Source: Comamonadaceae bacterium (lineage in GTDB: Bacteria > Pseudomonadota > Gammaproteobacteria > Burkholderiales > Burkholderiaceae). From it: 7,429 bases of DNA. Shown piece by piece: positions 4,691 through 7,429 of the stretch. The translations under genes and the position numbers were made by a program. The stretch is from the NCBI GenBank assembly GCA_947484245.1, contig CANKOT010000111.1, forward strand, positions 1-7,429, given 5' to 3'. The notes under the pieces were generated by a model, which saw nothing but the letters and a program-made list of their open reading frames with translations, did no database searches and was not told the DNA's origin. Every line of letters begins with the position of its first letter. Positions within the stretch are counted from its first letter, which is position 1.

Positions 4691-4715
4691 TTAAGGCTAC
4701 GCTAAAAAAGCGATA

Positions 4716-4790
4716 GGGCGATTAGCTCAGGGGTAGAGCACTGCATTCACACTGCAGGGGTCGCAAGTTCGAAACTTGCATCGCCCACCA
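4716..4790 (+). tRNA. tRNA-Val (anticodon CAC)
   Basis: A full cloverleaf can be drawn by eye. The acceptor stem pairs GGGCGAT (4716-4722) with ATCGCCC (4780-4786). The D stem is GCTC/GAGC (4725-4728 with 4736-4739). The anticodon stem CTGCA/TGCAG (4741-4745 with 4753-4757) encloses loop TTCACAC, with CAC at 4748-4750. The T stem GCAAG/CTTGC (4763-4767 with 4775-4779) encloses loop TTCGAAA. The discriminator is A (4787) and the CCA end is encoded (4788-4790). Anticodon CAC reads the valine codon GUG. It separates the isc-dnaQ genes from the accessory region downstream. Confidence 0.97.
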
Positions 4791-4808
4791 AAAATCTCCA
4801 ATTAAATC

Positions 4809-4843
4809 AAGCACTTAGATTAAAGTCTCGGTGCTTTTTTTCT
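4809..4843 (+). terminator. Rho-independent terminator of the tRNA-Val transcript
   Basis: AAGCAC (4809-4814) pairs with GTGCTT (4831-4836). A T-G wobble, one mismatch and AGA/TCT (4817-4819 with 4826-4828) extend the stem towards a 6-nt loop. A run of T follows (TTTTTTT, then CTTT). It begins about 18 nt after the tRNA CCA end, as expected for a terminator of this gene. Confidence 0.8.
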
Positions 4844-4846
4844 TTG

Positions 4847-4879
4847 AGTGTCCTAAAAATGTCCTAAAGACACTTTTTT
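4847..4879 (+). terminator. Possible second terminator hairpin with direct repeats
   Basis: AGTGTC (4847-4852) can pair with GACACT (4869-4874), followed by a T-run ending at 4879. An alternative inner stem uses TGTC (4860-4863) and GACA (4869-4872) with loop CTAAA. The interval holds a direct repeat of TGTCCTAAA at 4849-4857 and 4860-4868. The T-run doubles as the apparent left edge of repeat copy A. It may simply back up the first terminator. Confidence 0.45.
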
Positions 4880-5085
4880 CTTGTGAATAGTCAGCAGAGT
4901 GAACTTGATCAATTTCTGACTTTGAGCGACTTGAGGGGGGGAGGGTAACGCACTCTTTCCAGTATTTGTGGATGCCTCCCACCCACACAAGAAGCTAATT
5001 TGCGAATAAGTCGTTGTAATCGGTTTGGTACGGCAGGTAGGGAGCAGGTCAGCGCCTACCAACATTCATTGGCTTGACTGATAAG
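4874..5085 (+). repeat. Structured intergenic repeat, copy A
   Basis: First of three direct copies of a non-coding repeat. The core holds a G-run G7-A-G3 (4935-4945), TTTGTGG (4965-4971) and CCCACCC (4978-4984). Stem I pairs GGGAGG (4939-4944) with CCTCCC (4975-4980), and can extend with GGG/CCC past a bulged A. Stem II pairs AAGTCG (5008-5013) with CGGTTT (5021-5026), with two G-U wobbles and a 7-nt loop. From CCCACCC to the end of the first arm of stem II, copies A and C match at 35 of 36 positions. Copy A alone contains about 30 extra nt after stem II, which hold the inverted-repeat motif at 5024-5051. Left of the G-run, similarity to the other copies is weaker and needs a gap. Edges are approximate. 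No gene lies between copies A and B. Confidence 0.75.
5024..5051 (+). repeat. Left copy of 28-nt inverted repeat motif
   Basis: This motif begins TTTGGTACGGCAGG and ends GCAGGTCA. Its reverse complement recurs at 6692-6719 with 26 of 28 positions identical. With a few mismatches the similarity extends outward to 5019. It lies inside repeat copy A, where copies B and C have no equivalent. This is why copy A is about 30 nt longer between CCCACCC and the downstream TTGGCTTGACT-type segment (91 nt, against 62 in B and 57 in C). Confidence 0.7.
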
Positions 5086-5122
5086 CAATCACTAACTTAA
5101 ATCCCCAAGTATTGAAAATGTA

Positions 5123-5320
5123 TTGAAACTCAGGTTTTATGGGTGTCGATTCGGCTTAATTTTCCTGCTTTATTTTTGTAATGAAAACGGAAACATAGGG
5201 GGGGAGGGGGAGCACACTTTCTCCGGCATTTGTGGTTGCATCCCACCCACATATGAATCAAATTGGGAAGTTTGCAGCTTGAACCTGCAGTCGCCTAAGC
5301 AATTTGGTTGACTATGGGTT
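5123..5320 (+). repeat. Structured intergenic repeat, copy B
   Basis: Second direct copy. It begins TTGAAACTCAGGTTTT exactly 75 nt before its G-run (G7-A-G5, 5198-5210). Copy C begins with a near-identical segment, also 75 nt before its G-run, and the 75 positions align without gaps at 49 identities. TTTGTGG is at 5229-5235 and CCCACCC at 5242-5248. Stem I is shorter (GGGA 5208-5211 with TCCC 5241-5244). Stem II pairs TTGCAG (5272-5277) with CTGCAG (5285-5290) around a 7-nt loop, at the same distance from CCCACCC as in A and C but with different bases. TTGGTTGACT (5304-5313) resembles copy A's right end. Between this copy and the next gene (5321-5489) only a candidate promoter was seen. Confidence 0.75.
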
Positions 5321-5413
5321 CTCCACCCGTTTGGGTTGCACACTCACCGTCTGCAGATTAGTGCTATCACTTGGAAGCGACGCTCGATGATAAAAATTCA
5401 GCTGAATTACCAG

Positions 5414-5442
5414 TTGATATATTTGCACGTCACTTGTGAAAT
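5414..5442 (+). promoter_or_regulatory. Candidate promoter of the first lipoprotein gene
   Basis: TTGATA (5414-5419), a 17-nt spacer and TGAAAT (5437-5442) match the sigma-70 boxes at 5 of 6 and 4 of 6 positions. This would give a leader of about 40 nt before the ATG at 5490. The region is AT-rich, so chance matches are likely, and this is only a suggestion. Confidence 0.3.
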
Positions 5443-5489
5443 TAGATTACAGTATTCGTAATCAAAAAAGTAGATCGAAAGGGTACGCC

Positions 5490-6314
5490 ATGAAACTGCA
5501 CTTCAAATTTACGCTAATCTTTTTTGTTTCTTTATTGGTCGCTTGTGGTGGCGGTGGAGAGTCTGGGGCTTTGAATGCAACTAGTTACAGTTTAGAGGGC
5601 TTTGCCGCAAAAGGGACGTTGAAGTTTGCGACCGTAGAGGTTTACAAGCTTGATAGTAATGGCAATCAGACGTTGGTTAAATCAGGTGAGACTTTGGATG
5701 ATGGCACATACAAAATCCCTGATGTTGGCGTAACTGCTGGCCAAAAATACATTATTAAAATTAAGCCCAACAGCAGAACTGTTCACGTTGACGAATTGCT
5801 TGGCAATCAAACATTGCCAGCAGATTTTGAATTGACAGCCTTTACGCAAACCGATAGCGCCACAACGACTGTAAGCGTGACACCCTTTAGCCACATGATG
5901 GTCGAGGCCGCTAAAAATGCCCAAGGAGGGTTGACCGCTGCTAACATTTCTCAAGCCCAAATCACTATTACCGAATTACTAGGCTTCAACCCTATCACTG
6001 TCGCCAAAAATGACGGCGTCAGCAACGATGCGAAAAAACTAATCGTTCTTCTTACAGCTGTTTCACAAATGGCGAAAGATGGTGCATTAGGATGCACTAG
6101 TGGTGCGGCAGCAGATAAAACAAAATGTGTAATCAATGCCTTGGCTGCTGGAACTAGCAGTACTGGTTTGAAACTTGAAATGAGGTTGGGTTCTCAGACC
6201 TTTAACGTCTCATGTGTAATCGCCACTGCAATTAGTAAAACTCTGCAAGATGCCAAGTTCCAATCTCAATCACCACTATTGGCGCTAGTACTTAACAAGT
6301 TTAAATGTGGATGA
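5490..6314 (+). CDS. Putative outer-membrane lipoprotein, function unknown
   Basis: I do not recognise this protein. The ATG at 5490 is preferred over an in-frame TTG/GTG-type start near 5436 because it directly begins a lipoprotein signal peptide. GAAAGGG at 5477-5483 also sits 6 nt upstream. The signal is MKLHFKF, a hydrophobic stretch, and lipobox LVAC, with the lipidated Cys19 followed by GGGG. Glycine rather than Asp at +2 favours outer-membrane sorting. The product has 274 residues. Residues 33-100 look like a beta-sandwich of the carboxypeptidase-regulatory or transthyretin-like type (G-x-AAKG...VEVYKLD..GN...SGETLDDGTYKI); this is an inference from pattern. A predicted helical part follows (about 130-260). 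Four further cysteines (202, 213, 242, 273) could form two disulfides. The gene lies between repeat copies B and C, with copy C starting 2 nt after its stop. Confidence 0.8.
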   Translation: MKLHFKFTLIFFVSLLVACGGGGESGALNATSYSLEGFAAKGTLKFATVEVYKLDSNGNQTLVKSGETLDDGTYKIPDVGVTAGQKYIIKIKPNSRTVHVDELLGNQTLPADFELTAFTQTDSATTTVSVTPFSHMMVEAAKNAQGGLTAANISQAQITITELLGFNPITVAKNDGVSNDAKKLIVLLTAVSQMAKDGALGCTSGAAADKTKCVINALAAGTSSTGLKLEMRLGSQTFNVSCVIATAISKTLQDAKFQSQSPLLALVLNKFKCG

Positions 6315-6315
6315 G

Positions 6316-6511
6316 TTGAATCTCAGGTTTTCTTAGTGAAGTTTCGCCCTCGTTCTCAAGCTCTATATTTGTTCCAAGAGCAACAACAAAGGGGGGGGGG
6401 AGGGGTAACGTACTTCCTGCAACATTTGTGGTTGCTACCCACCCACACAAGAAGCTAATTTGCAAATAAGTCGTTCAAATCGACTTCTTAATGGTTGGCA
6501 AGTTTGAGAAG
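6316..6511 (+). repeat. Structured intergenic repeat, copy C
   Basis: Third direct copy, starting immediately after the lipoprotein stop with TTGAATCTCAGGTTTT. Its G-run is the longest (G10-A-G4, 6391-6405). TTTGTGG is at 6425-6431 and CCCACCC at 6438-6444. Stem I pairs GGGTA (6403-6407) with TACCC (6436-6440). Stem II is perfect: AAGTCG (6468-6473) with CGACTT (6481-6486) and loop TTCAAAT. Similarity to copy A seems to continue through TTGGCAAGTTTGAGAAGG (6495-6512). It lies between the two lipoprotein genes. No open reading frame is shared by the three copies. Confidence 0.75.
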
Positions 6512-6691
6512 GATTTCACTTGATTCTGTAGCCACACTATTCAAGATATCTAATGGGAGTGGCTCGTATAAAAAGATAACACGGCTCAGCCTAAGCACTA
6601 ATGCGCACGCGAGACATCAGCCCCCCCCTTGAAAGAAGATTAAGGGGCTTACTAGCAAATAGCCTAAAAGCCAAGACTGTTTTTGAGTATT
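6512..6691. other. Gene-free spacer with a C-tract hairpin
   Basis: No gene is seen here. The one clear structure is CCCCTT (6625-6630) pairing with AAGGGG (6642-6647) around an 11-nt loop. The upstream C8 run (6621-6628) allows slipped pairings, including AGCCCC (6619-6624) with GGGGCT (6644-6649). No T-run follows on either strand, so it is not a convincing terminator. TATAAA at 6567-6572 resembles a -10 box but has no matching -35. Confidence 0.4.
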
Positions 6692-6719
6692 TGACCTGCC
6701 CCCTCCCTGCCGTACCAAA
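6692..6719 (-). repeat. Right copy of 28-nt inverted repeat motif
   Basis: This is the reverse complement of 5024-5051 with two differences. It begins TGACCTGCCCCCT and ends CTGCCGTACCAAA. Weaker similarity extends outward to 6724. It lies about 50 nt upstream of the second lipoprotein start. Together the two copies bracket about 1.67 kb that contains repeat copies B and C and the first lipoprotein gene. No target-site duplication is visible outside the pair. Confidence 0.7.
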
Positions 6720-6767
6720 GTGATGGAACAAAGTCCGCTAATATCGGAGAGTATCAAGTGGATCACT

Positions 6768-7124
6768 ATGACTAAATTTCAAGCCTTTTGGATCATAGCA
6801 AGCAGTGTCTTTTTGAATGCCTGCGGCGGAGGTAGTACTGATCCGCAGAGTGAAAATAGCCTTTTTTATAAGTATGCTGGCTCACTGCAATGCTTTGGGG
6901 GTGGCCTATCATTATCTGAGATGACATTTCAACTTAGCAATTCTGGCATTCTGGTACTTGAGTCCTATTGTGGCGACGATGGTCTACCCCATGTTGCTAT
7001 GTGTGGTGCTACCGACGGGCGTATTGGTATCTTTAAGGTCTATTCGTTCCAAGAACAGACTGCATTTTCTATTGGCTTAAAACAGTTGAGCACATTACCG
7101 TCAGGAGTCAAAACAGATTGTTAA
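6768..7124 (+). CDS. Small cysteine-rich putative lipoprotein, function unknown
   Basis: I do not recognise this protein. The ATG at 6768 is chosen because it starts a compact lipoprotein signal, MTKFQAFWIIASSVFLNAC. The lipobox is LNAC, with lipidated Cys19 followed by GGG. In-frame GTG/ATG codons at 6720 and 6723 would add 16 polar residues in front of the signal. The ribosome binding site is weak (AAGTGG at 6756-6761). The product is 118 residues. The mature part is short, with glycine-rich turns and four cysteines (42, 68, 79 and the last residue, 118), which suggests a small disulfide-bonded periplasm-facing domain. Its stop is 8 bp from the stop of the convergent CWC gene. It shares with the upstream lipoprotein a Cys19-poly-Gly start, four extra cysteines and a cysteine at or near the C-terminus. 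The sequences are otherwise not visibly related. Confidence 0.7.
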   Translation: MTKFQAFWIIASSVFLNACGGGSTDPQSENSLFYKYAGSLQCFGGGLSLSEMTFQLSNSGILVLESYCGDDGLPHVAMCGATDGRIGIFKVYSFQEQTAFSIGLKQLSTLPSGVKTDC

Positions 7125-7132
7125 ATGTCAAC

Positions 7133-7342
7133 TTATCCAATTGGCTCAGTAACGCACTTTGAGCAAATGCAAGCCTTGTTTTTTGATTCTTCCGGCACCA
7201 GATCAAGAAGCTCTGACGAGAAGGTCGCAGTCATGCACCAGCACCTCTCAGGCGACTTTCCAGTGACTTTGGCAATTTCCTGAGCACACAGGTTAGGCTT
7301 ACCGCATATGGGGCACTTTGAAGGGTCTATTACTTTGTCCAT
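7133..7342 (-). CDS. Cysteine-rich CWC family protein
   Basis: This 69-residue protein matches the pattern of the small Cys-rich CWC family, named for its Cys-Trp-Cys motif and common in proteobacteria. Its function is not established. Visible features are CPICGKPNLCA (residues 9-19), the CWC motif in RCWCM (34-36), FSSELLDLVPEE and a C-terminal ACICSKC. The arrangement of CxxC-like pairs suggests metal binding, but this is an inference. The ATG at 7342 is the only suitable start. Just upstream the frame closes quickly and no clear Shine-Dalgarno is seen. It is convergent with the second lipoprotein gene and sits 33 bp after a probable upstream gene on the same strand. It likely marks the resumption of core chromosome. 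Confidence 0.85.
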   Translation of the reverse strand: MDKVIDPSKCPICGKPNLCAQEIAKVTGKSPERCWCMTATFSSELLDLVPEESKNKACICSKCVTEPIG

Positions 7343-7375
7343 TGAATGATTAGATCATGAGTAAAAATCATGTGC

Positions 7376-7429
7376 TTAATGTTGACTTCCACGATCAATG
7401 ACCTTAGCTTGGGCAAGCATCGCTTTAAT
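7376..7429 (-). CDS. Possible C-terminal end of an upstream gene (partial)
   Basis: On the - strand the frame entering from the right edge reads IKAMLAQAKVIDRGSQH and then TAA. Seventeen codons are too few to identify a product. A stop 33 bp before the CWC gene start would fit two genes in one operon. The reading is only a frame that stays open to the window edge and could be chance. Confidence 0.3.
   Translation of the reverse strand: MKAMLAQAKVIDRGSQH

Follow-up and report, generated by a model that had tools for sequence, protein, structure and literature searches.

Upstream of the tRNA-Val(CAC) gene, the window (the whole stretch of DNA that was analysed, 7,429 nt) carries genes that we take, from their open reading frames, to be an isc cluster, fdx and dnaQ. 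Among 90 genomes from the genus of a Comamonadaceae MAG, the dnaQ product had 97% identity to its G020 counterpart and 87-95% to those of thirteen others. Three related repeat copies, referred to as A, B and C, and two lipoprotein genes lie downstream of the tRNA (Table 1). In G020, G011 and G050, other genes follow the same tRNA-Val(CAC), and no matches to the copy cores were found there. B is followed on its right by lipoprotein gene 1, and C by lipoprotein gene 2. Nine relatives of lipoprotein 1 were found, none of them with a domain or a functional name. Neither lipoprotein matched the defence families searched, and the XRE-type regulator described below matched controller models in the same search. 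A small gene with a Cys_rich_CWC domain (Pfam, E 7.5e-14) is located on the minus strand at 7133-7342. A further C run within a short inverted repeat, AGCCCC...GGGGCT, was seen by eye at 6619-6649, outside the three copies.

The preliminary description of this DNA reported a G run, TTTGTGG and CCCACCC in all three copies, with the last two at a fixed spacing. This was confirmed, with TTTGTGG starting at 4965, 5229 and 6425 and CCCACCC starting exactly 13 nt past the TTTGTGG start in 3/3 copies. When up to three mismatches were allowed, the joint pattern matched three times in the window and not once in 200 shuffles, and A/B/C was the largest direct repeat family of the window (88 nt; identity to A was 68% for B and 83% for C). 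The left parts of B and C were likewise found to share 49 of 75 positions without gaps, which was equalled by 0/300 first-order Markov sequences. The left part of A was unlike that of B (96/300 random sequences were equally good). The copies had been given a length of about 200 nt, but their homologous cores are shorter (Table 1). The fixed internal spacing had been taken as a sign of function in the fold or the spacing; it is explained by the copies being homologous with few gaps, and no kept fold is required.

Table 1 Features downstream of and including the probable integration target in the window
Feature	Position	Strand	Evidence or remark
tRNA-Val(CAC), probable integration target	4716..4790	+	ARAGORN, Rfam tRNA
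Tandem repeat TGTCCTAAA, 11-bp period, putative arm-type site	4849..4868		66 nt ahead of the G run of A
Copy A	4934..5022	-	Flank with G run, XRE stop 4995-4997, last 8 XRE codons
IS-like end	5019..5051	-	Inverted counterpart of 6692-6724, 88%
Last 10 nt of tRNA-Val(GAC)	5052..5061	+	Same 10 nt and next stretch in G056, G087, G088
Block downstream of tRNA-Val(GAC) in relatives	5062..5197		Similarity to G056
GTATTGAAA repeat, 11-bp period	5109-5128, in block 5062..5197		69 nt ahead of the G run of B
Copy B	5192..5284	-	Flank with G run; model R1 match 5198-5283
Lipoprotein gene 1, 274 aa	5490..6314	+	No Pfam
Left part of C, inner piece of tRNA-Val(GAC)-type block	6316..6390		No adjoining tRNA piece
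Copy C	6387..6544	-	Flank with G run, XRE stop 6455-6457, ~29 XRE codons, in-frame stop 6488-6490
IS-like end	6692..6750	+	6689-6750 77% identical to L036/L146
Lipoprotein gene 2, 118 aa	6768..7124	+	No Pfam

Read on the minus strand, copies A and C consist of the 3' end of an XRE-type regulator gene followed by a 3' flank of ~65 nt, which ends in the C/G run; both lipoprotein genes point away from this strand. The counterpart used for alignment was a related genome, G055, whose contig starts inside the open frame TVVSKIERAVTNPSIEVLLKLANQLDVDLTDLFVN-stop. This frame resembles the XRE protein of another genome, G006 (Pfam HTH_3, 6.8e-13). In G055 the flank directly follows the XRE C-terminus, and a tRNA-Ser(CGA) lies ~190 nt further on with its 3' end towards the block. 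Copy A was aligned to G055 over 88 nt that take in the last 8 codons (score 106; maximum of 100 shuffles 27), copy B over 73 nt of flank only, at 5192-5264 (90; 28), and copy C over 158 nt through the XRE C-terminus (192; 32). Relative to G055, the XRE part of C has a 3-nt deletion and an in-frame stop. Copy C was also found by tblastn with the G006 XRE protein as query (E 7.7e-4). Copy B keeps the flank alone, and no XRE codons were recognised in its alignment to G055. The homologous XRE frame is thus present in A and C and not in B; as had been stated, no reading frame is common to all three copies, A and C alone sharing ..NDLFAN-stop on the minus strand.

With the XRE tail in A and C, two of the three copies therefore contain the terminal part of a coding gene that has decayed. 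A known IS, a REP or a decayed coding gene had been named in the preliminary description as what could account for the copies instead; the decayed gene end was found in A and C, and as to IS, one IS-like end adjoins A and another precedes lipoprotein gene 2. A 70-aa minus-strand ORF over A had one protein match, identical to the query. A coding role of the flank itself was considered and dropped because the differences between the copies did not resemble third-position changes (judged by eye, without computation).

The region containing B could be traced to a second tRNA gene. Positions 5052-5235 were 89% identical over 184 nt to the tRNA-Val(GAC) region of G056, and the left part of C (6316-6394) was 82% identical to G062. 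What B and C have in common on the left is therefore the block located downstream of tRNA-Val(GAC) in relatives. G087, G088, G033 and G062 share 85-94 nt of this block and then diverge, and the G-run flank is absent from all four. The tRNA piece in the window directly adjoins the IS-like end at 5019-5051, which presumably belongs to the IS3 family. The other IS-like end, at 6692-6750, stops 18 nt short of lipoprotein gene 2 and may supply its promoter. In G001 (G001:C16 37826-57679), a 51-nt copy of the 3' half of tRNA-Val(GAC), with the same orientation as the whole gene, lies ~20 kb away from it; this displaced half is regarded as the mark of an integrated element.

Between the tRNA and the G run, motifs repeated at 11 bp were noticed by eye in A and B (Table 1), in G055 (CATGTAGCCA) and in G434 (TACCTA), as well as in G006 (TTGGACAA). 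Taken singly, equally good repeats occurred per 300 random sequences 28 times for A, 16 for B, 3 for G055, 34 for G056 and 1 for G006. For G434 the figure was 91/300, and the best repeat of that locus was another one. The 11-bp distance summed over the five XRE/G-run loci gave 44 against a null maximum of 31 (0/500), and over seven loci, the two further ones being tRNA-Val(GAC) in G001 and G077, it gave 63 against 40 (0/500), with all distances from 7 to 30 allowed in the null; these joint figures are somewhat too good because the choice of segments followed the visual detection of the repeats. The repeats precede the G run by 66 nt in A, 69 nt in B, 113 nt in G055, 69 nt in G056 and 36 nt in G434. 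They are read here as candidate arm sites of a tyrosine integrase.

The preliminary description proposed either a transcribed RNA or a recombination/REP-like DNA element, and matched the copies to no described family. Rfam agreed on the last point: tRNA alone exceeded the gathering score, and at E up to 1 the one sub-threshold match lay outside the copies. What speaks for a structured non-coding RNA or leader family is a small hairpin that recurs. It had been placed 30 nt after the CCCACCC start in every copy; its 6-bp stem is present in B and C, and A needs two G-U pairs. Across A, B, C and G055, 87.5% of the cells of this stem, which was chosen for testing because it had already been seen, were paired (12/500 shuffles as high). 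Two-sided changes occurred in 4/6 pairs (30/500 shuffles), the covariation score was reached by 11/500, and slid versions of the stem paired to at most 45.8%. The short hairpin pieces of C and B had z-scores of -2.16 and -1.41, those of G028 and G055 -1.01 and -0.92, and a longer piece of G434 -1.49. Against this, the piece of A folds otherwise (z 0.12), G055 breaks 3/6 of the stem pairs, and the stem of C falls within XRE codons. Furthermore, on neither strand did the full copies fold better than shuffles (plus-strand z: A -0.55, B 0.15, C -0.40, G055 -1.92; minus-strand z: A -0.08, B 0.58, C 0.21, G055 -0.54), and only 1/15 pairs predicted by RNAalifold had a two-sided change. Promoter-like sites (1 vs 4.6 expected) and terminator-like sites (2 vs 2.4 expected, one of them on block A at 4938-4960) were not in excess. 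Without an Rfam family, a stable conserved fold or such an excess, an RNA family is considered very improbable, the recurring small hairpin being the part of that proposal that stood.

The distribution of the flank was examined with a sequence-only model, R1, built from A, B, C and G055, which it matches by design, and with R2, in which G434 and G056 were added. A search of 14 close genomes with copy A returned G055 (84%), G028 (partial) and G001, the last of which was rejected as a chance match of the exact-pattern scan. In the 90 genomes of the nearest genus, R1 found the full flank in G055, the left half in G056 and the right half in G028, where the match consists of the XRE tail and the flank start. 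At E up to 10 there was some match in 25/90 genomes, and three weak matches that were inspected (L069, L072 and L090) seemed by eye to fall within ordinary genes. Among 399 genomes drawn from the family, only G055 and G434 matched R1 at E <= 0.001; G434 was the sole match among the 10 genomes of its genus, a different one. R2 again recovered G055 and G056 in 38 genomes, with weaker matches in G028, G001, G080 and G077 at E 0.01-0.05. When the G055 flank was searched by blastn against a set of 399 family genomes centred on G001, nothing was found at E <= 0.01.

Outside these genomes, blastn of 4700-6560 returned 10 plasmid records and 1 phage record, which matched only the tRNA portion of the query. 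The exact-pattern scans returned 2 stretches in genome contigs and 4 in viral contigs, which had no preceding G run and were taken as chance. In the viral contigs, the left-half pattern gave one stretch (L137), without a G run of this kind, the right-half pattern gave no match, and no relative of the G006 XRE protein was found among 45 pattern stretches. Because the left half alone is present in G056 and the right half alone in G028, an integron attC-like site and a crossover midway through the block were also considered; this is not claimed because two partial copies are too few.

The G434 locus could be aligned to A, B and G055 better than all 200 random sequences, but its alignments to the XRE-coding queries of G028 and G006 were equalled by 51/200 and 127/200, and no XRE codons were recognisable in G434 or G056. 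A partial tRNA-Arg-like stretch was seen by eye at the start of the G434 contig, a locus at which ARAGORN found no tRNA, and in G056 the tRNA-Val(GAC) adjoins the half copy. A tRNA or tRNA piece is thus beside the flank in 5/6 loci (A, B, G055, G056 and, by eye, G434), and not in C. Next to the half copy of G056, two small overlapping minus-strand genes (L066 440-826 and 823-1050) resemble by eye a Doc-type toxin-antitoxin pair.

These searches bear on the idea of a free-standing, self-mobile REP- or MITE-like repeat, which should occur as numerous dispersed copies with constant ends. Such a repeat would fit the occurrence of B and the G056 half copy without recognisable XRE codons. However, the flank was not abundant, few copies being found in the relatives' genomes searched, the ends vary between copies, and no inverted repeat bounding all three cores was seen among those listed (25 of 27; 25 of 66). 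Self-mobility of this type is thus extremely unlikely. From the earlier proposal of recombination DNA, what stood is that the copies adjoin probable attachment sites and arm-type repeats, and REP-like mobility did not.

Fuller elements with related XRE genes are present in other genomes; XRE relatives were found in 9/90 at E <= 1e-12. The G006 element (~6.6 kb) contains an XRE gene (88 aa), a divergent lipoprotein gene of 222 aa, a 728-aa VapE-domain protein and a tyrosine integrase. Its integrase gene adjoins an intact gene, which we take to be moaC-like, and a 3' fragment of the same gene lies at the other end. In G016, an XRE gene and a divergent lipoprotein gene are located beside an integrase gene. 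No match to the block was seen for the G006 flank, since 207, 73 and 52 out of 300 random sequences scored equally well, and no convincing relation was found between the lipoproteins of the window and those of the G006-type layout (blastp E 0.010 and 0.014, both within the signal peptide, and 0.089). The parallel between G006 and the window is therefore one of layout only. Between the XRE gene and a divergent gene for a secreted protein or lipoprotein, G006, G016 and more weakly G031 have by eye two CCACGG sites 9 nt apart and a TTAAAAGC-like stretch (L043 1743-1824, L127 9724-9811, L128 upstream of 9337). These paired sites are perhaps an XRE operator; no such pair was seen by eye in the window.

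Taken together, the three repeats are probably decayed terminal segments of site-specific integrative elements that target tRNA genes, rather than a new RNA family. From the target inwards, such an end comprises the tRNA 3' end, the 11-bp-period repeats, a spacer of 36-113 nt, the ~65-nt flank beginning with the G run, and the antisense 3' end of the XRE gene. Elements with XRE-coding ends may have entered the tRNA-Val site or sites more than once, after which the integrase and other genes would have been lost and the XRE genes would have decayed. The two IS-like ends may mark deletions that joined a tRNA-Val(GAC)-type end to tRNA-Val(CAC), and IS elements would then have helped in the cutting and joining. 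This explanation draws on sequence comparisons that point the same way: an XRE frame with the flank near tRNA-Ser in G055, alignments of A, B and C far above shuffles, the tblastn match of an intact XRE protein to copy C, a tRNA or tRNA piece adjoining the flank in five loci, the shared 11-bp period, the assignment of 5052-5235 to tRNA-Val(GAC), and a tRNA-Val(CAC) free of copies in three close relatives. G006, with a related XRE gene, 11-bp repeats, a tyrosine integrase and a VapE-domain protein in one element, likewise suggests how the parts may have belonged together.

Several observations count against it. No integrase (two queries) or VapE remnant was recognised in 4791-7429 (best 16 aa, E 0.38), and a remnant, not an intact element, is therefore claimed; no far border or complete att pair was seen in the window. 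The mismatch of the G006 flank also counts against it, as do the block without the flank in G033 and G062, the position of C without a tRNA, the lack of recognisable XRE codons in B, G056 and G434, the negative ARAGORN result for the G434 locus, and the repeats of A, B, G056 and G434, which are unremarkable when taken singly. The recurring hairpin in copy B is not explained by element ends.

Within a decayed element end, the flank most likely serves as a passive linker that separates the attachment region from the last gene. It might instead be a kept cis-acting control site, at which for example a directionality factor, the XRE protein or a host factor is bound at excision, or XRE transcription ends. 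This is unlikely, although the flank recurs in two genera beside different targets, and the G run is better kept than its surroundings in G434 (relative to A, 11/12 positions against 35/58 for the remainder; relative to the other four, 9-10 out of 12 against 20-32 out of 55-58). B and G056 also retain the flank without recognisable XRE codons. On the other side, there are only six loci, three of them within one decayed region, G-rich runs are easily alike and therefore weak evidence, and the related G006 element has no such flank. Under a control site, the flank would be kept at a seam, with attachment modules exchanged on one side of it and cargo on the other. There is thus only a small chance that it represents a conserved control site of little-known tRNA-targeting elements of Comamonadaceae with XRE and lipoprotein genes; if that were true, it would provide a sequence handle for finding the element family.

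The repeats are real, and the best explanation for them is that they are left over from mobile DNA of a known kind. The literature search found no paper joining all the features queried, and otherwise general matches; the family is not claimed as undescribed. A convincing 'uncatalogued RNA repeat' can thus be the leftovers of integrative elements, for which the antisense gene tail and the 11-bp-period repeats are clues. Among known systems, PMC5704250 describes, for tRNA-targeting islands, decay to CIMEs and accretion of tandem decayed elements at the end of the target gene. The window differs in having no recognised integrase, far border or complete att pair; it resembles them in that decayed elements are piled up at a tRNA gene. 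The attP of ICEMlSym-R7A, given in PMC11963761 as 283 bp with five arm-type motifs, similarly has short repeated motifs beside the attachment core, whereas those of the window are candidate sites seen in the sequence, and their 11-bp spacing was observed in the present analysis. Phage-satellite-like islands, characterised by an integrase and a VapE-type primase, differ from the window, which is without these core genes. The G006 element appears to be phage-satellite-like, since it likewise combines an integrase, a VapE-domain protein and an XRE gene within ~6.6 kb.
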